64,000 bases of DNA from Cognatishimia activa (GTDB taxonomy: Bacteria; Pseudomonadota; Alphaproteobacteria; Rhodobacterales; Rhodobacteraceae): positions 62,001 to 126,000 of the forward strand of contig NZ_CYTO01000004.1 of assembly GCF_001458335.1 (NCBI RefSeq), in the 5' to 3' direction. Within the stretch, counting starts at the first letter, position 1, and each line of letters begins with the position of its first letter. Made by a program: the position numbers and the translations under genes. The notes below the pieces were generated by a model. The model saw only the letters and a list, made by a program, of their open reading frames with translations. It had not been told where the DNA came from and made no database searches. Below, piece by piece: positions 11,337 to 34,827 of this stretch.

Positions 11337-11380
11337 GTCAATTACGGAAAGCTGGTGATTCTTGGTGGCGTCTGCCGCCC

Positions 11381-17499: not shown

Positions 17500-17517
17500 G
17501 ATGATCTCCCGATGAAA

Positions 17518-17539
17518 GGCCGGGGCGCGTAGCCCCGGC
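17518..17539 (-). other. GC-rich hairpin between TPP-enzyme and uspA genes
   Basis: An inverted repeat around GCCGGGGC-GCGTA-GCCCCGGC lies in the 48-base gap. On the minus strand it is followed by only three T residues, so it may be a weak terminator or an mRNA processing/stability element that sets uspA expression apart from the upstream genes. Confidence 0.5.
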
Positions 17540-17547
17540 TGTTGGTG

Positions 17548-19332: not shown

Positions 19333-20738
19333 GCGACCTCCTGTCCAAAGAACTCACCGAACAGCTCCGCTTCCGAAGGGCGATCCTCGGGGATCGGGCG
19401 GCTGACCCAGGTGTAGTTCATCATGTGTTTCATGGTGACGTTTTCGTTGGTGATGTTGCCGCCCCAAATGCCGCAGCCCAAAGAGCTGGTCATTGGCATG
19501 CCGTTGGTCCAGGCCCCTGCGTTGGCCTTAGATTGCGGTTGACGCACCATCATCCGGCTGACCGGGGCAACGCGGGCCAGCGCATCAATGTGGTCGTTGT
19601 TGTGCGAATAGATGCCGCAGGAATGACCCTTGCCGCCGGTCTCGTAAATCTGGCGAACGGTCTCCAGCGCATCGTCAAACGTCTCGAAGTGATACAGCGC
19701 CATCAAAGTGGTCAGCTTTTCTTTCGAGAACTTGTGATCTGGCCCAATCTGGCCTTGATTTTCGACCATTAGAAACTTTCGATCCTCGGGGACCGAGAAC
19801 CCGGCCACATCAGCGGTCTGCTGCGGTTTGCAGGCAATCGTCGGGAAGGTGCGGTTGCCCTTCTCGTCCCACATGGCCTTTTCCAGAAGCGCCTTCTCCT
19901 CGGCCGAACACAGATAACCTCCTTCGGCCTGCAGCGCGTTGACCATGTCGTCATAGATCGACTTCTGGATGATGATGTTGCCATCTGCGGAACAGCCCGA
20001 GCCAAAGTCCGACGTCTTTGAAATTCGGGTGTTCTGTGCGGCGATGTCGAGATCGGCGGTTTCGTCGATCACGATAGAGGAGTTACCAGCGCCCACCCCA
20101 TAGGCCGGCCGGCCCGAGCTGTAAGCCGCCTTCACCATCGGTTTGCCACCGGTGGCCAGCGTCAGGTCGCAGATCTCCATCAGGTGCTGGGTCAGCGGGA
20201 TCGAGGGTCTGCGAATGGATTGGAACAGGTCTTCCGGTGCACCCGCGGCCCGGCAGGCCGCCCGCATCACGTCGACCATCTCAAACGTGGTCTGTGCGGT
20301 GCGCGGATGAGGAGAGAAGATCACTGCATTGCGCGCATTGGCCGAGGACACGCCGGTCACCGGCGGGGTCATGGCCGGGTTGGTCATCGGCACCAGAGAG
20401 GCAATCACTCCCGCAGGTTTGGCGTATTTGACCAGACCTTTTTCCTCGTCCACCTCGACAATCCCGGTCGAAGGCGTGCGCAGCACATCGCGCAGCACCA
20501 TGTGGATCTTGAACCGCTTACCCGGCCGCCCATTACGATCCCCGATGCCGCTTTCGTCCACGCCCTGTTCGGCAAGTCGGGTGAAAGTTTTCTCGTTCCC
20601 CGCATACCAGGCAATCGCCTGAGACAGGCGATCCAGACGCTCTTGCGACCAGTCTTCAATCTCGGCCATCGCCGCGCGCGCACGCGACAGCATGTCCGCC
20701 GCCAACTGGCGGTCTTCTTCAGTGAGCTCTTTGCCCAT
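19329..20738 (-). CDS. CoA-acylating aldehyde dehydrogenase family protein
   Basis: 469 residues. The Rossmann-type N-terminal half has GVIASLVPMTNPAMTP, a segment typical of the acylating branch (EutE/AdhE/SauS). The likely catalytic Cys249 is in SDFGSGCSADGN. It probably interconverts an aldehyde and an acyl-CoA with NAD(P)H in the cytosol. It resembles the SauS (sulfoacetaldehyde dehydrogenase) subgroup, but the substrate cannot be told. It is coupled to the TPP enzyme (4-base overlap) and its 5' end overlaps the stop region of the TIM-barrel gene by 20 bases. Confidence 0.82.
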   Translation of the reverse strand: MGKELTEEDRQLAADMLSRARAAMAEIEDWSQERLDRLSQAIAWYAGNEKTFTRLAEQGVDESGIGDRNGRPGKRFKIHMVLRDVLRTPSTGIVEVDEEKGLVKYAKPAGVIASLVPMTNPAMTPPVTGVSSANARNAVIFSPHPRTAQTTFEMVDVMRAACRAAGAPEDLFQSIRRPSIPLTQHLMEICDLTLATGGKPMVKAAYSSGRPAYGVGAGNSSIVIDETADLDIAAQNTRISKTSDFGSGCSADGNIIIQKSIYDDMVNALQAEGGYLCSAEEKALLEKAMWDEKGNRTFPTIACKPQQTADVAGFSVPEDRKFLMVENQGQIGPDHKFSKEKLTTLMALYHFETFDDALETVRQIYETGGKGHSCGIYSHNNDHIDALARVAPVSRMMVRQPQSKANAGAWTNGMPMTSSLGCGIWGGNITNENVTMKHMMNYTWVSRPIPEDRPSEAELFGEFFGQEVA

Positions 20739-21633
20739 GTCTTTCCTCGTGAGTTTTCAGGATAGCTGTGTCCGGCATACGGCGCTGAGACCGCGCTTCG
20801 CCGAAAGTTCGTTTCGCGTGCTGCAGGCAACGGCGCGCATGTTCTTCATACCCAAGCTCTGCCACACGGCTTTGGTTAGGTAGTTCGATCGAGTAGTCCA
20901 CCGGCGGCATACGCTCGATGATGCCCGCGAAATCAATCCAACCCTCGCCGGGATAAAGCCGTGCGTCCCGGGCCAGTTGGATCATCCCCTCACGGGTGTC
21001 GGCAATACCGGGCAGGCAGTCAGAAATGTGCAGGAAGTGGAACAGCTCGGAGGGCACATGAAGCAGCTCTCCAAGATCGACGCGGGAAAGGTGCAGGTAA
21101 AGCGTGTCGACTAGAATTCCGCCATTGGGCCGGTCCGCCGCGCGGACGATATCGAGGGTTTCGTCTAACGTGCGCAGGCGTGAAAAGGAGGGGAATTCAA
21201 GGTCCACCGTAATGCCATAAGGCGCGGCCAGATCGCAGGTCTCTCCGTAGACATCAACCAGGAAATTCCGGTCATCTCGCGTCTGGGTCCACGCCGACAT
21301 GATCATGCGCTTGGCCCCCAACTCTCCGCCAAGCTCCAGCGCGCGCTCAAAACTGCGCGGGTCCACGTCTTCGGTGATGCGCGCAAGCTCTACATCAAGA
21401 ACCTTCAACCCGGTCGTGGCGAGGGCGGTTTTGGTTGCTTGCACCTGCGCATTGTCCACCGGCTTTTCTTTGAACTCACCGGGCACTTTCATCGGTATGA
21501 AACGAGGGCTGACTGCGTCATAGCCCGCCCGCGCTGCGATATAGACCAGCTCGGGCGGCGTTGCGCCAATCAGTGTCAGATGGGCCAATGAATACAGAGG
21601 CTCTGTCAGCGTCTCAGGGGCGCTTTTGGGCAT
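20719..21633 (-). CDS. TIM-barrel sugar isomerase/AP endonuclease-like protein
   Basis: 304 residues of the xylose isomerase-like TIM-barrel family (AP endonuclease 2 superfamily). The expected metal ligands are all present: Glu146 (ITVDLEFPSF), Asp176 (GGILVDTLYL), His202 (FLHISDC) and Glu250 (DYSIELPNQS). Relatives are isomerases, epimerases or dehydratases of sugars and cyclitols, such as IolE and IolI. It is the first gene of the left transcription unit, with a 19-bp operator-like inverted repeat 52 bases before its start. In contrast to the QuiC-like protein of the same locus, its site looks intact. Confidence 0.82.
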   Translation of the reverse strand: MPKSAPETLTEPLYSLAHLTLIGATPPELVYIAARAGYDAVSPRFIPMKVPGEFKEKPVDNAQVQATKTALATTGLKVLDVELARITEDVDPRSFERALELGGELGAKRMIMSAWTQTRDDRNFLVDVYGETCDLAAPYGITVDLEFPSFSRLRTLDETLDIVRAADRPNGGILVDTLYLHLSRVDLGELLHVPSELFHFLHISDCLPGIADTREGMIQLARDARLYPGEGWIDFAGIIERMPPVDYSIELPNQSRVAELGYEEHARRCLQHAKRTFGEARSQRRMPDTAILKTHEERHGQRAH

Positions 21634-21684
21634 TTGATCGGCTCCGGATTACGTCAGCGACTCGCAGGCTTGTCTTACGTATTC

Positions 21685-21703
21685 CAAAATATCTGATATT
21701 TTG
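21685..21703. promoter_or_regulatory. Candidate GntR operator, site 1
   Basis: CAAAATATC-T-GATATTTTG is a perfect 9-bp inverted repeat around one base. It lies between the Gfo/Idh gene stop (21732) and the TIM-barrel gene start (21633). The same 19-mer, with one end base changed, occurs at 31300 before the TRAP genes. A further half-site (AAATATC) follows at about 21706-21712. Confidence 0.75.
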
Positions 21704-21731
21704 AAAAATATCAATTACTGAATTTGAGTGC

Positions 21732-22922
21732 TTAGATTTTTGTCCAAGCCCCCCCGGAAGCATTCGATCTGACAGAGGCATCGATGAACCGGACGCCAGC
21801 GGCCCCCTCGTCTACACGCGGGAACCCGACCCAGCCTTGCGGGGCTGCGATGCCGTCTTTGCGGGCGGCGACCGCCATAGCGAGTTCCATGTAGAGATTG
21901 GCCCAAGCCTCTATGATGCCTTCAGGGAAACCGCGCGCGGCCCGCACCAGCCGTTCAGTTCGTGCGCTGACGCCATGGCCGTGGCCCCGGCTGATCATAC
22001 GGTCAGGCTCACCATAGCGGACGAACTTCAAACGCTCGGAATTCTCGAGATCCCATTCAAGCCCCCCTTCAGAGCCATAGACCCGCAGCCGCAAACCACC
22101 ACGGTTGCCCGGAGCAAGTCGCGTTGCCATCAGGGTGCCCGGCACGTCGCCGGCGTAACGGGTGAACATGAAAGCCGTGTCTTCCAAAGGTTTCGGTGCG
22201 CCACAGACATGGAATTCCGCCCGCAGTTCGGTCATTTCCAGCCCTGACACGAAGCTCGCCAGATGGGCGGCATGGGTGCCGATATCACCGACACAGCTGG
22301 TCGGACCAGAGATCTTCGGATCCAAACGCCATTTGACATGGGGCGCGTCCGCGACGTCTTCGGGAGTCATCCAGTCCTGCAGAAACTCGACGTGGATTTG
22401 GTTGATCTTGCCAATACCGCCTTCCGCGACGATCTCGCGCGCCTGCCGGATCATGGGAAAACAGGACATGGCGTAGCCGACGCCAAACACCTGACCAGTC
22501 TGCGCGGCAAGGTCGACCAAGGCTTCGGCCTCGGCCACCTCATTGGTCAAAGGCTTGTCACAAAGGACGTCGATCCCGGCCTCAAGAAAGACCTTTGCTG
22601 CCTCGAAATGGAGGTGGTTGGGCGTCGTGATCATGACCGCGTCCACCCCGTCGGGGCGGGCTGCTTCGGCCTTGGCCATTTCCCCGAACGAGGCGTAGCA
22701 ACGCTCTGGCGGAAGGAACCACTCGGCCCCGCGTTCACGCGCTCGGTCAGGGTCGGAAGACAAGGCGCCGGCAGTCACTTCCCAACGATCCGTCAAACGG
22801 GCCGCAGTTGCTTGGGTCGCCGAAATGCGGCCACCACCTACGACCCCCAGCCGTAGGCGACGGGACAAACGTGGGTAAGGTCCCTCAAATTCAAAGTTTT
22901 CCGGCAGCAATTTCTCAGTCAT
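21732..22922 (-). CDS. Gfo/Idh/MocA family oxidoreductase 1
   Basis: 396 residues from MTEKLLPENFEFEGPYPRLS; the frame is open 114 bases upstream, but the ATG at 22922 overlaps the preceding cupin-like gene by 8 bases in normal operon style. The NAD(P)-binding motif is GVVGGGRISATQA, the EKP-type catalytic Lys lies in VLCDKPLTNE, and the substrate-site His pair in VGDIGTHAAHLA. The family oxidises or reduces secondary hydroxyls of sugars and cyclitols. It is the last gene of the right transcription unit. Confidence 0.88.
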   Translation of the reverse strand: MTEKLLPENFEFEGPYPRLSRRLRLGVVGGGRISATQATAARLTDRWEVTAGALSSDPDRARERGAEWFLPPERCYASFGEMAKAEAARPDGVDAVMITTPNHLHFEAAKVFLEAGIDVLCDKPLTNEVAEAEALVDLAAQTGQVFGVGYAMSCFPMIRQAREIVAEGGIGKINQIHVEFLQDWMTPEDVADAPHVKWRLDPKISGPTSCVGDIGTHAAHLASFVSGLEMTELRAEFHVCGAPKPLEDTAFMFTRYAGDVPGTLMATRLAPGNRGGLRLRVYGSEGGLEWDLENSERLKFVRYGEPDRMISRGHGHGVSARTERLVRAARGFPEGIIEAWANLYMELAMAVAARKDGIAAPQGWVGFPRVDEGAAGVRFIDASVRSNASGGAWTKI

Positions 22923-23589
22923 TTTCGCCTCCCACTCCAGGGATCGGCGCCCCGTCAGGTAGAATTTCCAACGCCATAAAGATGCTGGGCGTGGTGGTTT
23001 CGTATTGGTGCCAGGGATAGTTGCCCTTGGCGTCATACATCGGGCGATGGGTGATACCGGGCGCCATGGGGTCCTCTAGATACAGTGTCTCCGGATCGCG
23101 CGCGCGGCACTGTTGCATTTTACCGTAGCCGACGATCTGCGTGTGCACTTCGCGGAACCCGGAGACGGGGCAGAACGGATGCTCTTTGTGCAGCCCGACA
23201 TTCAGCGGCACCGAAGCTGAATGATACATCGTCAAGCCAATGTTCCCGACAAACTGCTTGGGCGACATATAGTGCTCTACCCCGCGCAGACGCTCTTCGC
23301 CGCGCACTTCGAAGGCAGAGGGCCAGACCTTGCGCACTTCTTCGCACAACGTGGTTTCGTCGGGATGAGCGTCGAAACGGTCAATAACCACGGCTCGATC
23401 TACGTCGCGCAAGGTGGTCTTGGCGAAGATTGCAGACTGCAGGGGCAGCAGGGTTTGCTCTTCAATCAGGATTGGCCGATCAGCCACATTCAGAACGATA
23501 GCCCGATCTGTGACCGGATACTCGGCCTCGTTGGTAATGTGTCGGATTCCGAAAAACGGCTCTGCGATATTGACTTGCTCACAGGGCAT
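22915..23589 (-). CDS. Cupin-like conserved protein of unknown function
   Basis: 224 residues from MPCEQVNIAEPFFGIRHI, overlapping the upstream Gfo/Idh gene by 11 bases. The middle contains GLHKEHPFCPVSGFREVHTQ, a His/Glu pattern like a cupin metal site, and a second His-rich segment is near HQYETTTPSIFMALEI. No signal peptide or membrane segment is seen. I do not recognise a named family; a metal-binding beta-barrel isomerase or dioxygenase is an inference from the His/Glu pattern alone. Confidence 0.65.
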   Translation of the reverse strand: MPCEQVNIAEPFFGIRHITNEAEYPVTDRAIVLNVADRPILIEEQTLLPLQSAIFAKTTLRDVDRAVVIDRFDAHPDETTLCEEVRKVWPSAFEVRGEERLRGVEHYMSPKQFVGNIGLTMYHSASVPLNVGLHKEHPFCPVSGFREVHTQIVGYGKMQQCRARDPETLYLEDPMAPGITHRPMYDAKGNYPWHQYETTTPSIFMALEILPDGAPIPGVGGEND

Positions 23590-24775
23590 GTTCGGCCTCC
23601 ACGGGGGCAAAGCCCTCACTTTCAGGGAAATTCTCGGGCAAAAGATCCGGGATGGGGCACGAGCTTTCGATCGTTTGATACAGACCGTGCACCGGGGCCC
23701 GGGCGATGGCGTCCATCACCTCGAACACGTGGAAAGAAAGATCGCCACTTGCGCGCACCGGGCGGTCATCGCGCACGGCATAGGCCAAATCCAGCAGACC
23801 AAGCCCACGGCTGTTCTGGTTGAAGCCATGACGGTTTTCGACTTCATGCCAATCATCGCGCCCGGCGGGCCGTGGTTGGTGGGACCATCTTGAAGTCTCG
23901 CGGGTTCGCAGCCAGACCGGACCATGGAAGTCGTTGGCGCCATGCACCGGGTCGGGATCGGGGATCGAGATCACACCGGTCTCTCCATAAATTTCAAATC
24001 GAGGCGTTTCGCTGTCCCAGATATCAAAGCTCATGGTCATCGACCCGATGGCCCCGGCTTCAAACTCAAGCAGGCTAAGCGAATGCGTGTCGACCCCGAC
24101 GTCGACCCATTCACCATTGCGGGGGCCGTTCTCGATCAGACGGCGATCGAAGGCACGGTTGGCCATGCCCGCAACCCGCGCGACCGGGCCAAGGCAGAAA
24201 ATCATGGCAGTCAGGTAATACGGGCCAAGATCCAGCAGCGGACCCCCGCCCGGTTTGTAGTAGAAATCCGGGTTCGGGTGATGCCGTTCCGTGCCATGTG
24301 TGCCGACATGAGCAAAGACACCCGTCGGCCGCCCAATCGCGCCTTCGTCAATCAGGCGACGCACGGTTTGCCACCGGCCACCCAGAAACGTATCCGGCGC
24401 ATTGCCTAGCTTCAGACCTTTGGCATTCGCAAGGTCAAGAAGCTCACGGCCCTCTTCCATATCCGTCACGAAAGGCTTCTCGGAATAGACATGCTTGCCC
24501 ACCACCAAAGCGCGACGCGTTATCTCGGCATGGGCTGCCGGGATGGTCAGGTTCAGTATGCAATCGATGGAGGGGTCAGAGATGACCTCTTCCACCGAAC
24601 AAGAGCGCGCGATCCTATGCTGTTCAGCCTTGGCGCGGCTTTCTTCGGGATCGAGGCTTGCGCAGGCGACCACGTCGATCTCAGTGAATTTTGCAAGTGT
24701 TTTTAAATAGATGTCGCTTATGCGACCACAGCCGATTAGGCCGACCCGGAAGGCTTTCGGTAAGTTACCGGTCAT
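23579..24775 (-). CDS. Gfo/Idh/MocA family oxidoreductase 2
   Basis: 398 residues from MTGNLPKAFRVGLIGCGRIS; the ATG at 24775 overlaps the upstream citrate-synthase-fold gene by 11 bases, so the longer open frame is not used. The nucleotide-binding motif is GLIGCGRIS, the catalytic-site Lys is in VYSEKPFVTD, and the substrate region is GGGPLLDLGPYYLTAMIF. It resembles inositol/sugar dehydrogenases. Together with two further family members in the locus it suggests several hydroxyl/keto steps on one substrate. Confidence 0.88.
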   Translation of the reverse strand: MTGNLPKAFRVGLIGCGRISDIYLKTLAKFTEIDVVACASLDPEESRAKAEQHRIARSCSVEEVISDPSIDCILNLTIPAAHAEITRRALVVGKHVYSEKPFVTDMEEGRELLDLANAKGLKLGNAPDTFLGGRWQTVRRLIDEGAIGRPTGVFAHVGTHGTERHHPNPDFYYKPGGGPLLDLGPYYLTAMIFCLGPVARVAGMANRAFDRRLIENGPRNGEWVDVGVDTHSLSLLEFEAGAIGSMTMSFDIWDSETPRFEIYGETGVISIPDPDPVHGANDFHGPVWLRTRETSRWSHQPRPAGRDDWHEVENRHGFNQNSRGLGLLDLAYAVRDDRPVRASGDLSFHVFEVMDAIARAPVHGLYQTIESSCPIPDLLPENFPESEGFAPVEAEHAL

Positions 24776-25589
24776 CGTCTTTCGCTTCGTAGAGGGGAAA
24801 ATATTGGGGGGGCATTGGCCCTTTGTTGCGGCCACCTTGCTGCATTTGTTCCCAGCCGTGGGACAATACGCCCACGGACCGGGACAGACAGAACAAACCG
24901 CGTGACAAAGGGGCCGGGAAGCCAAGCTCGCAAAAGATTACGGCTGTAGCTCCGTCGATGTTCATCGCAATGGGACGGCCACCGCGTTGGTGGCCAAGCT
25001 CGGCCTGAACGGCCTCGCCGATATCGGCGTAACGGCCCGAAACCGTGCCTTTCGCAGCGGCCTGACGCACCAGAGCCATCAGACGCGGGGCACGCGGATC
25101 CACCGGCTTGTGAAACCGGTGCCCGAACCCCGAGACGATCTTACCATGCTCGGCACGCCACGCATCCAAGCCGTCGCGAACGGCGTCCTCCAAGCCTGCG
25201 CCGGCATCCATTCGGTCGGCGATGTCGAAATAGAGCTCTGCGCATTGTTCGCCCGCCCCACCATGCACATCGCCCAGCATGTTGACCGCCGTAGCCATCA
25301 CATTGTTCAATCCCAACCCACAGGTGGCAGCCATACGCGCTGCCGCAATCGAGGGTGCCTGAGGCCCGTGATCAACCCCCGCCACAAGGGCGGTCTCAAA
25401 CAGCGCCGCCTGATCTGTCGTAGGCATGTCGCCTCGGACCATCAGCCAGATCATTTGCGGGAAGGAAACATTCCCGATCAGCTTTTCAATCGGGTGACCG
25501 CGAAAGGCGATTCGACCCGGCTCCATGTCGATGATCGACGTGCGCCACCAATGGCGGACGGCTTCGGCGTCAGAAGGTTGAGTGGTCAT
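24765..25589 (-). CDS. Citryl-CoA lyase-like enzyme (citrate synthase fold, small form)
   Basis: 274 residues, shorter than citrate synthase (about 430) because the N-terminal region is missing. The three catalytic positions of citrate synthase are kept: His109 in LGDVHGGAGEQ, His157 in GFGHRFHKPVDPRAP, and Asp212 in NIDGATAV. It may therefore make or cleave a C-C bond next to a CoA thioester, as citryl-CoA lyase does. The start (25589, GGAGG upstream) overlaps the stop of the dehydrogenase gene by 4 bases. In this locus it pairs logically with the acylating aldehyde dehydrogenase. The substrate is unknown. Confidence 0.8.
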   Translation of the reverse strand: MTTQPSDAEAVRHWWRTSIIDMEPGRIAFRGHPIEKLIGNVSFPQMIWLMVRGDMPTTDQAALFETALVAGVDHGPQAPSIAAARMAATCGLGLNNVMATAVNMLGDVHGGAGEQCAELYFDIADRMDAGAGLEDAVRDGLDAWRAEHGKIVSGFGHRFHKPVDPRAPRLMALVRQAAAKGTVSGRYADIGEAVQAELGHQRGGRPIAMNIDGATAVIFCELGFPAPLSRGLFCLSRSVGVLSHGWEQMQQGGRNKGPMPPQYFPLYEAKDDDR

Positions 25590-26443
25590 GCAGGGACCTC
25601 CTCTTGGGGCACAAGCCAGTCGAAACTGTTGAACATGCGTCGTGCCAAGGCGACGCGGCCGGTGATCAGGTGGAAAGCGGCGGCGGCTTGGAAAACAGCC
25701 ATTCCGGAACCATCCAGCGTTCGCAGACGGCGCGCCTGCGCTGCCTGCAGAAGGGCGGTCTGGCGTGGGAAATAGACGATGTCTGCGACCCAACAGGCAG
25801 GGTTAAGCATTGCAGGGTCCACCGCCATACCGGGTTGGCTGGCCATGCCCATCGGGGTGGCATTCACGACGCCATTCATGCCGACCAGTTCGCTTTGCGA
25901 GAGCGCTTCGATGCGCCGGACCATCGCCCTTGGCCGCGCGCACCTGATCCGTTCAGCAAGCTCCTGCGCTGCAGAGGGTCTTTGGTCAAATATGAAAAGA
26001 TTCTCGCAACCTTGATCGATCAGGGCCAGTGCAACCGCACCCCCAGCACCGCCAGCGCCCACCAGTGACACATTTTGGATCAACGTCATCGCCGGGGCCC
26101 CGCGCAGCGCAGACCGGAAGCCCACATAATCGGTGTTATGGCCAATACGCTGCCCGTCCTTGAACAACACGGTATTTACCGCCCCAAGTAGGCGCGCCGT
26201 GTCTGACAGTTCATCCATTTGCTCTGTCGCCGCCCGCTTGAACGGATAGGTTACATTGACACCTGCAAGACCCCCTGACTGCGCCTTGTCCAGTATCTGT
26301 GGAAGGGTCATGCTGTTGAACTCGGCCGTGGCGGTATCAAAGCGCTGGTAGTCGTAGACGAAACCCTGCGCCTGGGCCTCTGCCAGATGCATTTCTGGGG
26401 TCAGGGATTTGGCGATGCCATATCCGATCAAAGCAGCTTTCAT
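25586..26443 (-). CDS. Shikimate/quinate dehydrogenase family protein
   Basis: 285 residues. The substrate-binding SLTPEMH is at about residues 13-19, the catalytic Lys in GVNVTYPFKRA and the catalytic Asp in HNTDYVGF. The nucleotide loop is GAGGAGGAV followed by FIFDQRPSAA; an Asp at that place and the lack of the NRTxxR motif point to NAD+ rather than NADP+, as in catabolic QuiB/YdiB-type enzymes. It would oxidise quinate, shikimate or a related cyclitol acid. It overlaps genes on both sides by 4 bases. It is not the biosynthetic AroE by context. Confidence 0.85.
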   Translation of the reverse strand: MKAALIGYGIAKSLTPEMHLAEAQAQGFVYDYQRFDTATAEFNSMTLPQILDKAQSGGLAGVNVTYPFKRAATEQMDELSDTARLLGAVNTVLFKDGQRIGHNTDYVGFRSALRGAPAMTLIQNVSLVGAGGAGGAVALALIDQGCENLFIFDQRPSAAQELAERIRCARPRAMVRRIEALSQSELVGMNGVVNATPMGMASQPGMAVDPAMLNPACWVADIVYFPRQTALLQAAQARRLRTLDGSGMAVFQAAAAFHLITGRVALARRMFNSFDWLVPQEEVPA

Positions 26444-28323
26444 ATCCGCGGCATCCCGGCTGGTCGTTGGTGTTTCATCTGCGCTGCAAGCCGGGCCGAG
26501 GCATTCCGCGCGCCATAGCCCGCGTAGCCGCCACGCCGTTCAACGATCTCAAAAAAGAAACCGTTGAAGATAGGCTGGCTGTAAATCTGGAAGTATTCGG
26601 ACGTCCCATGTCGGTCGTAAAGGATATTGTCGTCCCGCAACCGGCCTGTCGTTTCGTCGTCCAAACCGAATTGCGCCTGTAGATCGTCATAGTAGTTGGG
26701 CGAGATTTCCAGACGCGGGAACCCATTTTGTGCCAGCAGCTCAGACGTTTCGAAAATGTCATCGCTCAGCATCGCAATGTGCTGAACGCCTGCCCCGAAC
26801 CGATCCTCAAGGAAGGACGCGGCAAAGGTTCGACGCCCCTCGGCCCCGTTCAGGTTCAGGCGCACCTCGCCTTCGGGGCTTTCAATCGCTTGGCTATGAA
26901 CAACCCCTGATGGGTCGGCGACATCCACGATCGGGGTCTTGGCCATCTCGAAGGTCGAGATGTAATAAAGCAGCCAGCTTTGCATTTCTTCATAGCGCAT
27001 GGTTTGTGCGACGTGGTCGATGCGGCGCAGGCCGGCGGGTTGGGTTGCGCTGGTCTTGGCGACGGGTTCAAACTCGATATCCCAGACGCGATGCAGATCG
27101 GACTTTTCATCGATAAAGTGGACGACATTCCCCCCCACTCCGCGAATGGCGGGAATATCCAGTTCACCCGACCCAACTGGCTGAGAGAAGCGCGGTGTTC
27201 CAAGGAGAGTCGCGCGTTCCACTGTCTGTTCTGCATCTTTTACGCGCAGGCCCATATCGCAGACGGACGGTCCGTGGCTAAGAAATGCGGAATGTGCGAA
27301 CCCCTCTTTCGAGATATTCACGACGATATTGATCGCACCCTGCCGCCAAAGCTGGACGGGTTTGGAAACATGTTGCCGCTCCATCCGGAAGCACAGGGCG
27401 GAAAGCAGGTCCGTCAGCACCTTGCCGCTGGTCTCGTCAGCCGTGAATTCAATGAACTCAAACCCAGAGGTATAAACGCGCGACGGCAGGGTTGGGATAT
27501 CGAAGGTCAGGTCCGGATCGCTGCGTGACACGTCATCCAGCAAATTGACCAGCGCGCGAAATCCATCCTGCGCCAAGGTGCGGCCACCCGGTCTGGGGCT
27601 GTGCTCGTTCACGCGGGCGACTGACCAAGAGCCAGCATAACCGCTTCTGGCCAGCACCTTGACGAAACCTGCCAAGTTCAGGGCACCCTGCCCAGGCAGC
27701 AGCCCGAAATGGCGTTTCAACCCACGTATGTTGCCCTGCGTTCGCGGTGCATCAGACAGCTGAACGTGGAACACACGATCCCCGGGGATGTGGCGTAGTT
27801 GAGCCGGTTTGGTTCCATCTGCCAGTGAGAAATAGCTGTTCAAGGCAAGTCCAAGGCTTGGACTGTTGATCTCCTCGACCAGTTTAAGCGCGACTTCGTC
27901 AGTCTGGACATCCCCGGCCCAAGGCAATGCCAGATAGCCCAACCGAACCCCATGCTTGGCCGCCCGTTCAGCAGCCTCGGTCAGATCCGCCAGAGTAGTT
28001 TCGCGATCGGCCTCCAAACTGGATGCGCCCACTAGCATCAGATCTGTGCCAAGCACTTGCATCAGGTCAAACTTGCGTTCCAACCGATCGAATGCCCGAA
28101 CTCTGTCTTTGCCTGTCCACCCTTCAAGATCATTGAAAGGCTTCAACAAGTTGATCCGCAGGCCGAGGTCAGTCACCCGGTCGGCAAGTTCTGCCGCGCT
28201 GCCGTGGTATCCGGTGAAATCCGGCTCGTGCAGCTCAATTCCATCGAAACCCGCCTCGGCAATAGCCGCAAGTTTCTCTCGCAAATCACCGGGGATAGAC
28301 GTGGTCGAAATTGAAAGTGACAT
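26440..28323 (-). CDS. QuiC-like TIM-barrel/HPPD-domain fusion with altered metal site
   Basis: 627 residues. The N-terminal half (about 1-265) is an AP endonuclease 2-type TIM barrel like 3-dehydroshikimate dehydratase; the C-terminal half (about 285-600) is 4-hydroxyphenylpyruvate dioxygenase-like. Aligned by eye to Pseudomonas QuiC1, whose ligands I recall as E134, D165, Q191 and E239, this protein has Leu131 (LGYLALPW), Asn162 (LALNSYF), Gln188 (HVQLSDAP) and Ala236 (WSVARVNE). Three of four ligands are lost. The C-terminal vicinal-oxygen-chelate triad is intact: His437 (RIDHVAQ), His515 (VQHIAML), Glu592 (FFFEIVER). The true activity may therefore reside in the dioxygenase-like half. Confidence 0.8.
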   Translation of the reverse strand: MSLSISTTSIPGDLREKLAAIAEAGFDGIELHEPDFTGYHGSAAELADRVTDLGLRINLLKPFNDLEGWTGKDRVRAFDRLERKFDLMQVLGTDLMLVGASSLEADRETTLADLTEAAERAAKHGVRLGYLALPWAGDVQTDEVALKLVEEINSPSLGLALNSYFSLADGTKPAQLRHIPGDRVFHVQLSDAPRTQGNIRGLKRHFGLLPGQGALNLAGFVKVLARSGYAGSWSVARVNEHSPRPGGRTLAQDGFRALVNLLDDVSRSDPDLTFDIPTLPSRVYTSGFEFIEFTADETSGKVLTDLLSALCFRMERQHVSKPVQLWRQGAINIVVNISKEGFAHSAFLSHGPSVCDMGLRVKDAEQTVERATLLGTPRFSQPVGSGELDIPAIRGVGGNVVHFIDEKSDLHRVWDIEFEPVAKTSATQPAGLRRIDHVAQTMRYEEMQSWLLYYISTFEMAKTPIVDVADPSGVVHSQAIESPEGEVRLNLNGAEGRRTFAASFLEDRFGAGVQHIAMLSDDIFETSELLAQNGFPRLEISPNYYDDLQAQFGLDDETTGRLRDDNILYDRHGTSEYFQIYSQPIFNGFFFEIVERRGGYAGYGARNASARLAAQMKHQRPAGMPRI

Positions 28324-28328
28324 GGGTC

Positions 28329-29624
28329 CTAGCCTTGGTAACCCAACAGTCGCGGTAGCCAGAGGATCATGTCAGGCAGCAGCATCATTGCGACCAACGC
28401 GATGATAAGAACCGCAAGGAAACCCCAAATTTCGGAGATGATCTCTCGCAATGGGATGTCTGTTACTGCGTTGATGACGAACAACAGGATACCGTAAGGC
28501 GGGGTGATCAGACCGATCATCGAGTTCACGACAACCAGAACCCCAAAGTGGACAAGATCAATCCCAAGCGCCTCGCAAGTCGGGATGAACAGCGGCACGA
28601 TCACCAGAATAATTGTGGTGGCATCCAACACACATCCCAACACAAGGATCAGGATGTTGACGAGGATCAGGAACATGATCGGGTGAATTTCCGCCCCGCC
28701 CAGCATCGCCGAAATGGCCTGTGGAATCTGCTCCTGAATCACGATGAAGTTCAGAATGAAGGCACCGCCGATCACGATCCCGACCGAGGCCGAAGACCGG
28801 GCGCTGTCAACGAAGACTTGATAGAGCTTCCCGAGAGAGATGGCCCGATAGAACATGAACGCTAGCATCAGCGCATAGAAAGCGGCGACCGCTGCAGCCT
28901 CTGTCGGCGTGGTGACTCCGCCATAGATGCCATAAAGCAGGATCACAGGCATCAAAAGTGCGGGGAATGCATTAGCGGTCTTCTTGGGCAGTTCGCGCAG
29001 CGGAACCGGTTCTTCAAGCGCAAAGTTGCGTTTGCGCGCTAGGTATCCGTTCATGACCATCAGGACGGCGCCCATGATCAGGCCCGGCAGAATACCTGCA
29101 AGGAACAGCGAACCGATCGACGCTTTGGAAACCAGCGCATACAAGACCATTGGAATGGACGGTGGGATGATCGGGCCAATGGTGGCTGTTGCCGCCGTGA
29201 TCGCCGCCGCATAGCCGCGCGGATAGCGGTCGCCTTTGGTCATCATCTCGATGATGATCTTGCCGATGCCAGCCGCATCAGCCACAGCCGACCCCGACAT
29301 GCCCGAGAAGATCAGCGAGGCCACAACATTCACATGCCCCAAACCGCCTTTGAAGCGACCAACAGCCGCAACACAGAAGTTCAGCAAACGGTCAGTGATC
29401 GACCCCGCATTCATAATGTTGGCGGCCACAATGAACAGCGGAACGGCCAATAGGATGGTGCTGCGATAGAAACCCTGCAGGATCTTTTCACCTGCCAGGG
29501 CGATGTCCAAACCTGCGACGCCCAGATAGACGACCGAGGCCAATAGGATCGAATACCCGATCGGCGTACCAATCCCCGCTAGGAAGAACAGGGTGACAAG
29601 AAGGGAAATCAGCTCAAAGCTCAT
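28329..29624 (-). CDS. dctM: TRAP transporter large permease subunit (DctM)
   Basis: 431 residues with about 12 membrane segments, beginning MSFELISLLVTLFFLAGIGTP, and the conserved IIPPSIPMVLYALVS region of DctM proteins. It forms the sodium-coupled transport channel with the small subunit. The gene overlaps the small-subunit gene by 4 bases and is 5 bases from the QuiC-like gene, so transport and catabolism are one unit. Confidence 0.93.
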   Translation of the reverse strand: MSFELISLLVTLFFLAGIGTPIGYSILLASVVYLGVAGLDIALAGEKILQGFYRSTILLAVPLFIVAANIMNAGSITDRLLNFCVAAVGRFKGGLGHVNVVASLIFSGMSGSAVADAAGIGKIIIEMMTKGDRYPRGYAAAITAATATIGPIIPPSIPMVLYALVSKASIGSLFLAGILPGLIMGAVLMVMNGYLARKRNFALEEPVPLRELPKKTANAFPALLMPVILLYGIYGGVTTPTEAAAVAAFYALMLAFMFYRAISLGKLYQVFVDSARSSASVGIVIGGAFILNFIVIQEQIPQAISAMLGGAEIHPIMFLILVNILILVLGCVLDATTIILVIVPLFIPTCEALGIDLVHFGVLVVVNSMIGLITPPYGILLFVINAVTDIPLREIISEIWGFLAVLIIALVAMMLLPDMILWLPRLLGYQG

Positions 29625-30184
29625 TTGTCGGTTTCCTCTTCGAAATTCTCTTCTTCAGCCTCATGAATGGCTTCGACCGCCAATTCGAGTTCGGTTTTCG
29701 GGGGGGCATTGCGCCAGATGTCGACGAACATCCACGCGTAGCGCGCGGCGACCGCGACGATGAAGACCGCGTAGATCGAAAAGACATCGCGCAGCGGAAT
29801 CTTCGCCCCGGTGAACGGGTTCCGCACCGTCGCTGTCTTCCGGATTTTCATCCAGTCGATGTAATCCCATGTGGGCAGCAGCGTATAAAGCATGCCAACC
29901 ACCAAGGCCGCCGCCGAAATCATCGCAAAGACCTTCCGGGTTCGTTTGCTAACCGACAGATATACGATGTCGAATTTGACCTGATCCTGCTCTCGCACGA
30001 CGAATGCGCAGGCAAAGAAAATCACCCAGACCCATAGGATACCGATCAGTTCCAGCGTCCATCCGGCGGGCGTGAAAAGGTATCGAAGCGCGATCTGTAG
30101 CAGAAAGATAACAAAGATTGCCGCCAGCAAGCCGCCGGCAATCATTTCAGCAAGTCGGGAGAACCATCTAAAGGCTTTCTCCAT
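29621..30184 (-). CDS. dctQ: TRAP transporter small permease subunit (DctQ)
   Basis: 187 residues with four membrane segments (about residues 15-35, 48-66, 88-107 and 130-152) and an acidic C-terminal tail ending EAEEENFEEETDK. It is the usual partner of DctM and lies between dctP and dctM in the standard order P-Q-M. Confidence 0.9.
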   Translation of the reverse strand: MEKAFRWFSRLAEMIAGGLLAAIFVIFLLQIALRYLFTPAGWTLELIGILWVWVIFFACAFVVREQDQVKFDIVYLSVSKRTRKVFAMISAAALVVGMLYTLLPTWDYIDWMKIRKTATVRNPFTGAKIPLRDVFSIYAVFIVAVAARYAWMFVDIWRNAPPKTELELAVEAIHEAEEENFEEETDK

Positions 30185-30212
30185 AGTCGTCCTCCCCCTT
30201 GTTCAGGTCAGA

Positions 30213-31220
30213 TCAGTTGCCCAGGGCGTTGACCTGTTCCAACACACCTTCGGGCCAAGATTCAGCAAATTCGCTTTCAAGATACATCGACTGTACCTGA
30301 TTGCGGAATGCTGCCAGATCGGGCTCGTAAATGGTCATTCCTTGCTCTTCGAGGAAGGCAACAAGGTCGGCCTCTTTCTGAAGCTGCTTCTGACGACCGC
30401 TTTCGGCAGCGGCATCGGCCGCAGCTTGAACTTTGGCTTGCTGGTCAGCGCTCATGTCATCCCAGACCGCTTTGGAAATCGCGATGTAGTTCAGGTCAAC
30501 AAGGTGCGACGTCAGGATGATCTGCTTGGTCACCTCGTAGAACTTCGCGTCCACAACGGTCGGCAGAGGGTTGTCCTGACCGTCAACCGCACCGGTCGAC
30601 AGCGCGGTGTAAACTTCCGAGAAAGCCATAGGTGTCGGAGCTGCACCAAGGGCCTTACCCAGGAACTGCCACGCGTCGGTGCCTGGCATCCGCAGGTTCA
30701 CACCAGCAAGATCTGCAGGCGTCTTGACCATCAACTCGTCCGGAGACTGACGCAGGTTCACCTGGCGGCGACCCAGATACATGACCGATAGAAGCTTTAC
30801 GCCCAGATCGTCTTCGGCAGTTTTCTTGAACGGATCCATCAGCGGATCGTTGAAGACAGCAACCTGATGCGCGGCGTCCTGATGGACATAGCCCGCAGTG
30901 AAGATCGAGAACTCGGGGAAGAACTGCGCCAGTTCCTGTGCCGAGGTGATCGACATTTCAAGGTTGCCTCGAGAGATCGCGTCAAGCTCGGTGCCCTGCG
31001 CGAAGATTGTTCCGTTATAGCTGGGCTGATAGTCAACGAAGTCTGCAACCATTGGCGCAAACACTTCGGCCATGGCGACCGAACGTTGGTCTGTTTCAGA
31101 GCCCGACGTCGCCATGCGTAGTTGGATTTTGTCTGCTGCCAGGCCAGCCCCTGCGCTGACTACCATGCCGGCGGCCATTAGGGCGGACATCGCTGTCCGG
31201 CGGGTGAGTTTCGTGATCAT
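30213..31220 (-). CDS. dctP: TRAP transporter substrate-binding protein (DctP)
   Basis: 335 residues with an export signal (TRRTAMSALMAAGMVVSAGAG, cleaved probably after LAA) that could be Tat- or Sec-type. The region GVNLRMPGTDAWQFLGKALG carries the Arg that in this family pairs with the substrate carboxylate, and GAVDGQDNPLPTV follows. The cargo is therefore probably a carboxylic acid such as a sugar or cyclitol acid. It is the first gene of the right transcription unit, about 80 bases downstream of a 19-bp operator-like site. Confidence 0.92.
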   Translation of the reverse strand: MITKLTRRTAMSALMAAGMVVSAGAGLAADKIQLRMATSGSETDQRSVAMAEVFAPMVADFVDYQPSYNGTIFAQGTELDAISRGNLEMSITSAQELAQFFPEFSIFTAGYVHQDAAHQVAVFNDPLMDPFKKTAEDDLGVKLLSVMYLGRRQVNLRQSPDELMVKTPADLAGVNLRMPGTDAWQFLGKALGAAPTPMAFSEVYTALSTGAVDGQDNPLPTVVDAKFYEVTKQIILTSHLVDLNYIAISKAVWDDMSADQQAKVQAAADAAAESGRQKQLQKEADLVAFLEEQGMTIYEPDLAAFRNQVQSMYLESEFAESWPEGVLEQVNALGN

Positions 31221-31299
31221 GAGTTTCCTCCCAAAGTTTCCATGTTCATAAGCTCGACGGTAAGATTGCCTGATTTTAGTTTATTTGCAATATTTTTTG

Positions 31300-31318
31300 C
31301 AAAATATCAGATATTTTA
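31300..31318. promoter_or_regulatory. Candidate GntR operator, site 2
   Basis: CAAAATATC-A-GATATTTTA matches site 1 (21685) in 18 of 19 positions when the other strand is read. It sits 80 bases before dctP and overlaps the stop codon of the third Gfo/Idh gene, so dctP and its followers probably have their own promoter. Confidence 0.75.
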
Positions 31319-32404
31319 ACCCGTAACCGTTACTTCCTCTTTAGTTTCAACAGTTTGCCTGGATAAAACCTTAACCGTTTCTCTGGATTTGCAGGCTTCT
31401 TGTATCGCCTCCAGCACCTTTAAGGTGCGTAGACCTTCCCGACCGGACACCAAGGGTGACGCCGTATGGGTAATAACCTCTGCGAAATGACGCATCTGAT
31501 TGACCAGTGGGTCCGACCCTCCCCTGACAACAGTGGTCGCGGCGATCGGAGACCACCAATCTCGAGCACCATTCTGATGCGTCCAAAGGCGAAGGTCAGG
31601 CACCGACAGCGACCCGTGCGATCCACCAAGTAAATAGCAACTTTCAGGTGTTGGTGGGTAAATCGGATATTCGTTTGACGTCAGCTCCCAGCTCCACGGC
31701 GAAACAATGCTGTCAGATACGGTGATCGTGCCAATGGCCCCGCCCCGAAATCGCAGAACTGCGGCTGCAACATCTTCATTCTCGAATCCACGTTTCGACG
31801 GGGCGGATTGTGCTTGAACGCTTTCGACCTCACCGCACAAGTGGCGGATCAGATCCACATCATGAGCCAGATTCACCGAGATGGGTCCGGCCCCTGTCTT
31901 TTTGCGCCACGGTGCTTCGTCGAAATAGTGGTCCGGTTTGTAAAACCAACAATTCACATGAACGGCGCGCACTTCCCCTATGCCGCCAGACGAAACAATG
32001 TCATGCGCCTTACGGATCAGTGGGTTGTGGCGGCGGTGGTGCCCCACCAATACCGGAACACCGGCTTGCTCTGCTTCCTCCACCAATGTCTGCGCTTCAC
32101 TCGCAGAAGTCGCTAGTGGCTTTTCAACAAGAACAGGGCAACCCCGTCTGACGCACTCCAAACCCTGCTCTACATGCAAAAGCGTAGGGGTTGCCAGCAC
32201 AACCCCGTCGGGGGATTGAGCAGCAAAAAGGTCTTCCAAAGTCTCAAAGCAAGGCACATCCCGCTCTTCGGCGAACGCGCGTCCTGCCTCGCTTGGGTCC
32301 ACGACCCCAGAGAGGTTCACGTTTTTTAATTGGTTGATGGCATCTGCGTGGCGTCGGCCAACAAGCCCAACCCCTGCAATCGCTACCTGAACTGTCTGAG
32401 ACAC
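31316..32404 (-). CDS. Gfo/Idh/MocA family oxidoreductase 3
   Basis: 362 residues from a GTG at 32404 that has GGGAG 7 bases upstream; an ATG at 32473 would add 23 residues of unlikely sequence. The N-terminal VAIAGVGLVGRRHADAI binds NAD(P), the catalytic Lys is in VLVEKPLATS, and the substrate-site motif is ISVNLAHDVDLIRHL. It is divergent from the gntR gene and is separated from dctP by the site-2 operator. Confidence 0.88.
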   Translation of the reverse strand: MSQTVQVAIAGVGLVGRRHADAINQLKNVNLSGVVDPSEAGRAFAEERDVPCFETLEDLFAAQSPDGVVLATPTLLHVEQGLECVRRGCPVLVEKPLATSASEAQTLVEEAEQAGVPVLVGHHRRHNPLIRKAHDIVSSGGIGEVRAVHVNCWFYKPDHYFDEAPWRKKTGAGPISVNLAHDVDLIRHLCGEVESVQAQSAPSKRGFENEDVAAAVLRFRGGAIGTITVSDSIVSPWSWELTSNEYPIYPPTPESCYLLGGSHGSLSVPDLRLWTHQNGARDWWSPIAATTVVRGGSDPLVNQMRHFAEVITHTASPLVSGREGLRTLKVLEAIQEACKSRETVKVLSRQTVETKEEVTVTG

Positions 32405-32508
32405 TCCGAAACTCCCGGTTCGTGCCTTTGAATGCACGCTATTCGACAAGGGGTCGGAATCGCTCTCCCCCATTTCGGTTCACCCTAGGGGGTATCAATG
32501 GGATTTAC

Positions 32509-32527
32509 AAGAATTTCTGATATTTTT
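32509..32527. promoter_or_regulatory. Candidate GntR operator, site 3 (weaker)
   Basis: AAGAATTTC-T-GATATTTTT keeps the right half (GATATTTT) of sites 1 and 2 and part of the left half. It lies in the divergent gap between the third Gfo/Idh gene and gntR, where autoregulation would be expected. Further AT-rich half-sites follow to about 32556. Confidence 0.55.
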
Positions 32528-32581
32528 AGATTTACCAGATTTATTGTGATATTGTGAGACTGTCTTGGAGGTGATATTTAC

Positions 32582-33265
32582 ATGGTAAATCAGAAAAAAC
32601 CGGACAAAATGATGAACAAGCAATTCGCTACTGTCGGATCAAGCACCTATCAGCGTATCAAGCACGACATCATCTTTGGAGATTTGAAACCGGGCGCAAA
32701 ACTGAAGCTTGAAGGGCTGAAACAACGCTATTCCACAAGTTCATCCACCTTGCGCGAAACTCTGAACCGGCTGGCCAGTGAGGGATTCGTTGAAGCGCCA
32801 GAACAGCGGGGCTTCTTCGTTACACCTGTTTCCCGTGAAGACCTTATCGAGATTACGGAACTGCGTGTCCTATTGGAATGTCACGCATTGGAACAATCGA
32901 TCGAGAACGGCGACACGGATTGGGAAGGCAATCTGGTTGCGGCCCATCATAAGCTGCACTTGATGGAACAGCGACTTCTGTCCGGCGATGAATCTGAGAA
33001 AGAGTTGTGGAAACGCTATGATTGGGAGTTCCACCTGGCAATGATCGAGGCCTGCAACTCCAAAAACCTCTTGTCATTGCACTCTACGCTTTATGACAAG
33101 TACCTGCGGTATCAGATGCTTGTGCTAACCTATCGCGGAGACGTTGCAGTCCAAGAACACAAGGCCATGTTCGATGCAGCGCTTGCAAGGGACGCGAGCA
33201 AAGCCAAGCAGCTTCTTGAAGAGCACATTCGCAACGGCTTGGAGCATACATTGGCAGCTATGTGA
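32582..33265 (+). CDS. GntR family regulator, FCD/FadR subfamily
   Basis: 227 residues. The N-terminal winged helix (about 18-85) includes STYQRIKHDIIFGDLKPGAK, and an FCD-type all-helical effector domain follows, with Asp/His residues (LLECHALEQSI, YDWEFHLAMIEACNS, EHKAMFDAALARDA) of the metal-binding subgroup. Such regulators commonly sense carboxylated sugars or aromatic acids and repress adjacent catabolic genes. ATG at 32582 follows GGAGGTGA. It is the likely master regulator of the 17-32 kb locus. Confidence 0.92.
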   Translation: MVNQKKPDKMMNKQFATVGSSTYQRIKHDIIFGDLKPGAKLKLEGLKQRYSTSSSTLRETLNRLASEGFVEAPEQRGFFVTPVSREDLIEITELRVLLECHALEQSIENGDTDWEGNLVAAHHKLHLMEQRLLSGDESEKELWKRYDWEFHLAMIEACNSKNLLSLHSTLYDKYLRYQMLVLTYRGDVAVQEHKAMFDAALARDASKAKQLLEEHIRNGLEHTLAAM

Positions 33266-33599
33266 GCGCGATAGCTTCCGTGTCACTTTGTTAACGTCCG
33301 CGAACCGTAAAAAGATTCAGTGCTGAACTCGTGCAGCGAATGTCCGCTTCTCTAATTGGGTGTCTGGGTCAAGCTCATATTCCTTTTTCTGAGTGTTTGG
33401 GTATCGTCTATCCGGGTCACGCTTCTCTTCGCAGTCTGGTTTGGCGCTCGAAGGGCGCCGCTGCATGCATGTGTCGGATTGGAAGTGGAGAGCCCCGCTT
33501 TCCGGCGCGCTTCAAGTTGCGCAGCAGACATTTTCGGCTTCATCCACGAACCTCGTCCGGATTGGACGATCCCGTCAGGTTAGGTGGTAGGCTAATTGT
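33266..33599. other. Gap between gntR and IS110 transposase
   Basis: 334 bases without a supported gene. A 63-codon frame on the minus strand (33352-33543, starting MKPKMSAAQLEARRKAG) has no recognisable family and a weak context. The left end of the IS110-type element must lie in or near this stretch, but this family lacks clear inverted repeats, so I cannot place it. Confidence 0.4.
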
Positions 33600-34825
33600 T
33601 CATGCTGTGCCTCCAACTTTTTCCTGACGGAATTCTGTTCCGTCGGTCCACATACGATGCAAAAGAACGGCAAGTTTGCGAGCGACCGCGACAACCGCTC
33701 TGCGACGCCCTTTAGTCCGCATCAACCGCATGCCCCAAGTCTTGATCTGTGACCCCGCCATCGTTCGCATCAACAAAGCATTGGCCGCAGCATAAAGAGT
33801 TGCCCGAACGTCTCGATCTCCAGCTTTCGATATGCGGCCCGGGTTGTCGTGTTCGCCTGACTGATATCGTCGCGGTGTGAGTCCGAAGTGTGCGGCCACA
33901 GTCCGGGATCGCTTAAATCGTTTTGGGTCATCCACAGCCGCCTTGAATGTAAGGGCCGCTATCGGACCCACACCAGGAACAGTCATCATGCGCATACAGA
34001 CTTCGTCCTGAGAGGCAGCTCGCTTAACGCGTCGATCAAGTTCAAGATAGTTCTGGAAGAGGACAACCCGGGCATCAAGCAGAGGGATGATTGCGTGCGC
34101 GAGAACGTCATCCATCTCGATCATGGGCCGCACGAGGCCATCGAAAGAGCCGTGTTTCACTGTTCTGGGCAGCCGAACCCCAAAGATCTTCAATAGACCT
34201 CGTACTTCATTGGCCAGATCCATCGTCTTCTTAAGCAATGCCTTGCGTGTGCTCAGAAGCGCTCGTAGTCCATGGGCTTCGCGGCTCTTCATATGAACCG
34301 GGCTGAACCAGCCGGTCCGTAGAATCTGAGCTATGCCCTTCGCATCGGTCCTATCGGTTTTGTTCCGCATCGCAGACAAAGCCGCGCTGACCTGCCGCGC
34401 TTCCATGCAGACTATGTCGAAGCCTTTCGCTTGCAAGCCAAAGTAAAGGTGCTGACTAAGCGCGCCCGCTTCAAAGCCGATCCGCTCGATTGGATGGGGG
34501 AATGCCTCCAAGCAACCTGCAATATCACTAACTTCGCATGGCAACTCTCGCTCCAAGCAAACTTTGCCACGACCATCAACGACGCAAAGCGCACATGATC
34601 GAAGTGAAACATCTAATCCAACGAAGTATTTCATTCTCTGTCTCCCTTTCTCACAGCATTGCTGTGATCCTATCGGGAGCTCGACCTCAGAACAGGGTCA
34701 GCCCAATTACGCATGCTTCCCGCCCCCACTCAGCACTCCAACGGTGGCGTTTGCCTGTAACTTGGGTGGACCTTCAGTGACAGGAGGCCCAAGGTCACCA
34801 ACAGGGTTTCGACAAGGTTAAGAGA
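33560..34825 (-). mobile_element. IS110-type insertion sequence (approximate ends)
   Basis: The element comprises the transposase gene plus about 190 bases upstream of it. Ends are estimates, because IS110 elements have no long inverted repeats and duplicate little or no target; the short shared AGGTTA near 33578 and 34815 might mark core sequence but is too short to trust. The start codon of the nuclease/helicase gene is 34828, so the right end must be at or before that point. Confidence 0.6.
33600..34634 (-). CDS. IS110 family transposase
   Basis: 344 residues. The N-terminal RuvC-like DEDD domain shows Asp in FVGLDVSLRS, Glu in RIGFEAGALS and the Asp pair in NKTDRTDAKGIAQIL. The C-terminal Tnp_20 domain has MMTVPGVGPIAALTFKAAV and the probable nucleophilic Ser in GRISKAGDRDVR. 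These recombinases are guided by a bridge RNA made from the element's own end. The gene appears intact. It sits just upstream of the nuclease/helicase gene, facing away from it. Confidence 0.92.
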   Translation of the reverse strand: MKYFVGLDVSLRSCALCVVDGRGKVCLERELPCEVSDIAGCLEAFPHPIERIGFEAGALSQHLYFGLQAKGFDIVCMEARQVSAALSAMRNKTDRTDAKGIAQILRTGWFSPVHMKSREAHGLRALLSTRKALLKKTMDLANEVRGLLKIFGVRLPRTVKHGSFDGLVRPMIEMDDVLAHAIIPLLDARVVLFQNYLELDRRVKRAASQDEVCMRMMTVPGVGPIAALTFKAAVDDPKRFKRSRTVAAHFGLTPRRYQSGEHDNPGRISKAGDRDVRATLYAAANALLMRTMAGSQIKTWGMRLMRTKGRRRAVVAVARKLAVLLHRMWTDGTEFRQEKVGGTA

Positions 34826-34826
34826 A
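34635..34826 (-). ncRNA. Putative IS110 bridge RNA region
   Basis: In IS110-group elements the structured bridge RNA is encoded in the non-coding end upstream of the transposase. Here 192 bases without a gene lie exactly there. A perfect hairpin, TCACAGCA-T-TGCTGTGA, is at 34651-34667 next to the transposase start, and further GC-rich complementarity is visible. The RNA itself is inferred from position and family knowledge; target- and donor-binding loops were not resolved by eye. Confidence 0.45.
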
Positions 34827-34827
34827 A

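Follow-up and report, generated by a model that had tools for sequence, protein, structure and literature searches.

Three sites, here called O1, O2 and O3, in a 64,000-nucleotide stretch of the genome of Cognatishimia activa (contig NZ_CYTO01000004.1, positions 62,001 to 126,000; the window, whose numbering is used throughout) are predicted to be operators of a GntR-family regulator with an FCD domain, encoded beside O3 (32582–33265, forward strand, 227 amino acids). With a probability that we put at about 0.86, this protein would control through them three leftward units: the gene of a Gfo/Idh/MocA dehydrogenase (Gfo_A, headed by O3), a cluster running from a tripartite ATP-independent periplasmic (TRAP) transporter through a QuiC-like gene to another such dehydrogenase (dctPQM-QuiC-...-Gfo_B, headed by O2), and an operon for a TIM-barrel protein, an aldehyde dehydrogenase (ALDH) and a thiamine-diphosphate (TPP) enzyme (headed by O1). 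From gene order and spacing each unit would be a single transcript. A conserved operator is found in the regulator's own divergent gap as well as at the target promoters, the pattern of a local autoregulated regulon, and the best description would seem to be an autoregulated repressor of the FadR/FCD type that acts on three target units through three operators and whose signal is probably a carboxylate.

The operators follow a 19-base pattern, CAAAATATC-N-GATATTTTG, with 18 fixed positions and half-sites TATC-N-GATA. O1 (21685–21703; CAAAATATCTGATATTTTG) is a perfect 19-bp palindrome with its centre 61 bp from the start of the TIM-barrel gene. O2 (31300–31318; CAAAATATCAGATATTTTA) has one mismatch, overlaps the stop codon of Gfo_A and is centred 89 bp from the start of dctP. 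O3 (32509–32527; AAGAATTTCTGATATTTTT) is degenerate and lies in the divergent gap between gntR and Gfo_A, with its centre 64 bp from the start of the former and 45 bp from that of the latter. A first, sequence-only reading of this DNA had noticed that the sites at 21685 and 31300 agree at 18 of 19 positions once the first is reverse-complemented, and had seen at 32509 a weaker copy with the same right half; both observations hold, the weaker copy having four mismatches to the 18 fixed positions. The same reading placed the sites by the regulator and at the heads of two leftward units. The positions stand, but there are three such units, Gfo_A being a separate one headed by O3.

O3 is more than a weak copy of the palindrome. 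At the same place relatives carry a lopsided form with the consensus gCAATAATaT.tGATATTTTT, which is itself conserved and from which O3 of the window differs at its left end.

Within the window two matches are found at up to three mismatches; 100 shuffles gave 0.05 on average and never as many as two. The genome to which the window belongs (G000; 3,358,706 bases, 3.36 Mb, in 26 contigs) holds the 19-mer at up to two mismatches at O1 and O2 and nowhere else, and the same is true of the 11-base core ATATCNGATAT, with two occurrences where 0.7 would be expected; the exact 17-mer would be expected 0.0004 times (both expectations are first-order, from the composition of the window). The motif is thus not frequent genome-wide, a frequency that the sequence-only reading had regarded as fatal to its proposal. 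Up to three mismatches, the 19-mer matches seven places in this genome, the five besides O1 and O2 each with exactly three, and the 17-mer at up to two mismatches matches five: O1, O2, O3, C9:32518 and C20:3761. Among these further matches, C20:3761, at the start of a helix-turn-helix-like gene that adjoins an integrase-like gene, and C24:810388, inside a tyrosyl-tRNA synthetase-like gene, were not counted as regulon members. C9:32518 was left out too, though it may be one; an ABC solute-binding protein-like gene lies about 116 bp downstream of it (gene names by eye). Other weak 19-mer matches, within three mismatches, are C7:70165, C24:415154 and C24:753214.

The sites recur where the locus recurs. 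From 383 relatives the best 80 loci were analysed, in which GntR is 70–93% identical and of which many are from Ruegeria; some members are shared with the set of 100 genomes described below. The three places could be measured in 71 (dctP), 71 (gntR gap) and 16 (TIM) of the 80 loci, the remainder having a locus or contig end, a missing gene or another gene order. Two controls were run: windows of the same length taken anywhere in the same loci and, because such random windows are mostly coding DNA, dinucleotide shuffles of the measured stretches themselves, which are composition-matched and the harsher of the two. Upstream of dctP a site was found at up to three mismatches in 61 of 71 loci and at up to four in 63, the latter against 0/1315 random windows and 8/1420 shuffles. 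The gntR gap holds a site at up to five mismatches in 67 of 71 loci (random windows 8/1323, shuffles 37/1420), as do all 16 upstream regions of the TIM-barrel operon, four of them within three mismatches (random windows 1/297, shuffles 8/320). The 61 dctP sites represent 28 distinct 19-mers, and among 49 dctP-side representatives with less than 85% mutual identity the columns of the palindrome are nearly fixed while those upstream of it carry little information. Absence from orthologous loci would have counted against the original proposal; instead the motif occurs at the same three places in many genera and extends to a genome of another family (G088). It also follows the TIM operon, standing directly before it despite another gene order in two of the loci (L081, L127) and in the genome G009.

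The survey of 100 genomes shows how far the motif accompanies the regulator. Among 59 same-family relatives, six (G001, G002, G006, G009, G046, G051) have an orthologue of GntR with at least 70% identity, and G088 has one that is 60% identical. The 17-mer at up to one mismatch was found in three of the six same-family holders against two of the 53 others (G017, G041; Fisher p 0.006), and exact 17-mers are present in G000, G002, G009, G051 and G088. Sites at up to three mismatches precede both dctP and TIM in G002, G051 and G009; the gap variant is there too, with five mismatches in G051 (AATAATGTATGATATTTTT) and no more than four in the other two. In G009 a 1-mismatch site separates the TIM operon from the neighbouring citryl-CoA lyase gene, and in G088 a 1-mismatch site lies between Gfo_A and dctP. 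G006 cannot be judged for sites, its 3,422-base contig ending 68 bases past the regulator gene. Seventeen loci of distant GntR proteins (33–45% identical) showed no site at up to four mismatches in about 3.6 kb. The co-occurrence with close orthologues, the site in the regulator's own divergent gap and the absence from these 17 loci are what argue for assigning the palindromes to the GntR protein. As to the expected co-occurrence of motif and GntR, it is seen in most of the loci with a GntR of 70–93% identity and not, at up to three mismatches, in five holders at 47–57%; the attribution to a GntR regulon is well supported by the comparison of loci and stands as a prediction.

Two observations were made beside these comparisons. 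By eye, the gntR gap of the G088 locus (L042; 1.4-Mb genome) contains at 11220–11340 a long imperfect inverted repeat, AGTAATAAC.GATAT ... ATATC.GTTATTACT, unlike the sites in other gaps. The nearest named GntR matches (92–93% identical; L050–L052) are from Aliiroseovarius, the best genome of the same genus (G002) reaching 86%, so that transfer of the locus from one genus to another is possible.

The regulator has an N-terminal GntR winged helix-turn-helix (PF00392, 56.6 bits against a cut-off of 27) and a C-terminal FCD effector domain (PF07729, 75.9 bits against 24.3), and so belongs to the GntR family and to its FCD, FadR-like, subfamily. Asp147, His151, His193 and His215 are invariant in six orthologues and align with the Asp, His, His and His of structure 3sxy, so that by sequence the Asp-His-His-His site is present. 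This metal/carboxylate site is typical of FCD domains, and from the family the regulator would be expected to bind a carboxylate. It would seem likely that a dimer binds each palindrome, and the extra half-sites beside the operators may assist the binding of a second one. As long as no inducer is present, the protein would repress all three units (Gfo_A, dctPQM-QuiC-...-Gfo_B and TIM/ALDH/TPP) and probably its own gene; the inducer would be a carboxylate that the TRAP system imports, or a product of it, which would bind the FCD domain and release GntR from the DNA.

Promoter-like sequence lies at all three operators. A scan of 17000–33500 gave six sigma70-like candidates against 6.5 in shuffles, which is no excess, and three of the six coincide with the three operators; it is the placement that is notable and not the number. 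One candidate lies over O1 (21686–21714, reverse strand, TTGATA-17-TATTTT) and one over O3 (32504–32532, forward strand, toward gntR, TTTACA-17-TAGATT), both as consensus matches only, and a third abuts O2 (31273–31302, reverse strand, TTGCAA-18-TAAAAT), with a second TTGCAA 12 bp further downstream that is better conserved in relatives. Steric repression would fit these positions, since every operator overlaps or abuts a candidate. A −35-like element at the same place as in the O1 candidate is seen in G002 (TTGACA) and G051 (TTGATA), and 7 bp nearer in G009 (TTTACA). No such element is evident in most other TIM upstream regions compared, so the O1 layout is limited to the window and its nearest kin. 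In the O3 form of the relatives the outer GCAA reads TTGC toward Gfo_A, a possible −35 element, where the window reads TTGT. Beside O1 there is an extra half-site (21705–21713), which coincides with the −35-like TTGATA; its 9-bp arm can pair in full with the inner arm of O1, 2 nt away. By eye, G002 and G051 have a similar half-site. A weak extra half-site accompanies O2 (31290–31296), in a stretch AAAA.aTaTTGC that is conserved in relatives.

The dctP side leaves some room for the sites being GntR operators at which the protein acts as an activator, or with dual sign. By eye, a conserved TTGC(A/G)A begins about 10 bp past the operator and is followed after 17 bp by a weak −10-like stretch; if this were the promoter, the centre of the operator would fall near −54, a position more usual for activators. 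The candidate given by the scan, however, abuts O2, and O1 and O3 lie over promoter candidates. We regard an activating or dual role at dctP as rather unlikely. With operators over or against promoter candidates, and a conserved TTGC beyond O2, repression appears the likelier mode and activation at dctP possible.

The predicted system can be set beside known ones. In a paper that covers the FadR subfamily (PMC4494728), the usual operator consists of TKGT and ACMA boxes with GT and AC 3 nt apart, exceptions being listed; BioR and NanR are members with other motifs; and weaker half-sites occur beside the operators of 13 groups, 7–12 nt from the centre. Like the local catabolic regulators described there, the system of the window has a GntR helix-turn-helix joined to an FCD domain, A/T-rich palindromic operators, a divergon with the regulator gene and weaker half-sites. 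It is unlike them in having TATC-N-GATA in place of TKGT/ACMA, so that the operators are not of the canonical FadR type (typical of the subfamily and not required for membership), and in having its extra half-sites about 15–16 nt from the operator centre. This would be an ordinary kind of local GntR control with an unusual half-site. The same paper links a G/C pair of the TKGT box to the contacts Arg-35 and Arg-45 and to Gly-66 of FadR. The corresponding positions 44, 54 and 75 are E, D or K, then S, N, L, P, V, M or F, then Q in the 80 orthologues; of 17 distant cousins, just one carries Arg at 44, and Arg at 54 and Gly at 75 are absent from all of them. Loss of these contacts was considered as the cause of the A/T half-site and explains little, the distant cousins mostly being without them too.

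The best NCBIfam match of the regulator is the CsiR model NF008576, with a score of 121.9 bits, far below the cut-off of 218, so it is not taken as a CsiR equivalog. CsiR of Pseudomonas putida is a repressor that protects a region containing the −10 and −35 elements and responds to glutarate and L-2-hydroxyglutarate (PMC6667623). The target genes here differ from those of CsiR. A literature search, judged mostly by titles and the starts of abstracts, found no report of these operator letters or of this type of locus.

Several findings weigh against the assignment to GntR. Eight of the 71 dctP upstream regions have no site at up to four mismatches (L086, L096, L106, L108, L109, L112, L120, L128; in L108 a dctP paralogue was picked by the script), sites there with exactly four mismatches (L088, L104) are doubtful, and four of the 71 gntR gaps have none at up to five (L069, L092, L124, L108). 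The loci are moreover related by descent and hence not independent trials. Two of the holders of close orthologues, G001 and G046, retain the gap variant only. The 17-mer at up to one mismatch also occurs without a close orthologue, and exactly in the non-holders G079 and G081. Altogether it is found in 18 of the 100 genomes searched, the window's own included, and nine of the 18 are genomes of at most 1.8 Mb that have no close orthologue. A reversed control pattern was matched in four genomes (G041, G065, G067, G069), for which reason the pattern says little in small genomes. About 20 kb around the more distant GntR proteins of G098 (57%), G053 (52%), G020 and G050 (50%) and G058 (47%) contain no site at up to three mismatches, and the motif therefore does not hold across the wider clade; a 4-mismatch match lies directly upstream of the regulator gene in G053 and two lie about 1.1 kb away in G050. 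The absent FadR Arg–G contacts, being shared with most distant cousins, do not single out the TATC-N-GATA motif. Finally, binding by GntR, the sign of control and the effector are all predicted from the DNA and its comparisons.

Some of these points would suit a different arrangement, in which the palindromes bind a regulator encoded outside the locus and GntR has another site. The holders at 47–57% are without a site, some genomes have one without a close orthologue, and TATC-N-GATA differs from the usual TKGT/ACMA consensus (PMC4494728). Yet 67 of 71 loci have a version of the site in the gntR gap, the window's own genome has no copy of the core outside this locus, as fits a local regulator, and PMC4494728 includes BioR and NanR as subfamily members with other motifs; an outside regulator is quite improbable. 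That the sites are AT-rich palindromes arisen by chance, or core promoter elements serving no regulator, is very unlikely to the point of being negligible, for although they overlap promoter-like sequence and shuffles of these AT-rich stretches occasionally come within four to five mismatches, the dctP upstream regions have a site at up to three mismatches in 61/71 loci against 1/1420 shuffles and the palindrome is conserved where its upstream flank is not.

If GntR is the regulator, as we favour, the operators join the TIM/ALDH/TPP operon and the TRAP/QuiC cluster into a single regulon. A subfamily of regulators that mostly has another motif would thereby gain an operator that is compact and conserved, and there would be fewer candidates for the substrate of a catabolic gene set found in many, mostly marine, Alphaproteobacteria, among them Ruegeria, Aliiroseovarius, Roseibium/Labrenzia and Octadecabacter. 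Should the pathway not turn out to be new, the finding is of modest interest.

The evidence on the pathway is mixed, with signs of quinate or shikimate on one side and inositol-like ones on the other. As in quinate/shikimate catabolism with QuiC (structure 5hmq), the O2 unit encodes a QuiC-like fusion together with a shikimate dehydrogenase-like (AroE-like) protein, and the pair suggests quinate or shikimate as the substrate. Unlike in that system, the QuiC-like protein stays below the equivalog cut-off (515.3 bits against the QuiC model NF042435, cut-off 1200; 465 bits against 5hmq), and no match to the intradiol dioxygenase family PF00775 was found in the window's own genome, the LigB family being the only other ring-cleavage kind searched. 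The LigB family gave a single match there, to a 4,5-DOPA dioxygenase that scores 277.9 bits against a cut-off of 233. The ring-cleaving protocatechuate dioxygenase that a route from quinate or shikimate to protocatechuate would call for in the same genome was thus not found among these kinds. PF00775 is present in seven of the nine genomes with a related regulator that were tested, the own one included, and lacking in G000 and G088. The genome has a QuiC-like gene and no PF00775 match that would account for the fate of any protocatechuate.

A TIM/ALDH/TPP operon together with several Gfo/Idh genes resembles inositol catabolism. Among solved relatives of the TPP enzyme, acetolactate synthases lead, and cyclohexane-1,2-dione hydrolase is one of them. 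The best structure match of DctP is 4pf6 (519.6 bits, the next at 140.8), which we take to be a Roseobacter protein with bound 3-deoxy-D-manno-octulosonate; a limited literature search found no paper for the structure. It is possible, if doubtful, that the regulon controls an undescribed route for a carbocyclic acid, built like inositol breakdown and with no protocatechuate cleavage in this genome, and that the GntR-FCD proteins switching it form a subgroup whose operator code, TATC-N-GATA, is their own. Such a route would use Gfo/Idh oxidations, the TIM-barrel enzyme, a thiamine-diphosphate ring opening, the acylating ALDH and a citryl-CoA-lyase-like cleavage, and its genes in marine Alphaproteobacteria could then be sought by means of the operator.

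The genes of the three units all lie on the reverse strand. Gfo_A (31316–32473) is divergent from gntR and forms its own unit. The O2 unit begins with the TRAP solute-binding protein dctP (30213–31220), the small permease dctQ (29621–30184) and the large permease dctM (28329–29624), followed by the QuiC-like protein, a TIM barrel fused to an HPPD-like domain (26440–28323), and the AroE-like protein (25586–26443). Next come a citryl-CoA lyase family protein (24765–25793) and the Gfo/Idh/MocA dehydrogenase Gfo_C (23579–24925), both given as listed open reading frames (ORFs) with true starts probably further in, a conserved 234-residue protein (22915–23619) and, at the end, Gfo_B of the same dehydrogenase family (21732–23036, listed ORF). 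The 234-residue protein has no Pfam or NCBIfam match and is conserved in relatives. In those examined it lies between two Gfo/Idh genes, the exception being L104, where the locus ends beside it. The O1 unit consists of a xylose-isomerase-like TIM-barrel protein (20719–21633), an acylating aldehyde dehydrogenase-like protein (19329–20738; best model AcylSulfactDhSauS, 430 bits, under the cut-off of 600) and a thiamine-diphosphate enzyme resembling acetolactate synthase (17548–19332).

Directly to the right of gntR (33600–36816 and onward), an IS110-type transposase is followed by a protein that contains a Schlafen group 3 helicase domain. By eye, the ORFs at about 37126–39152 have the look of mobilisation genes.

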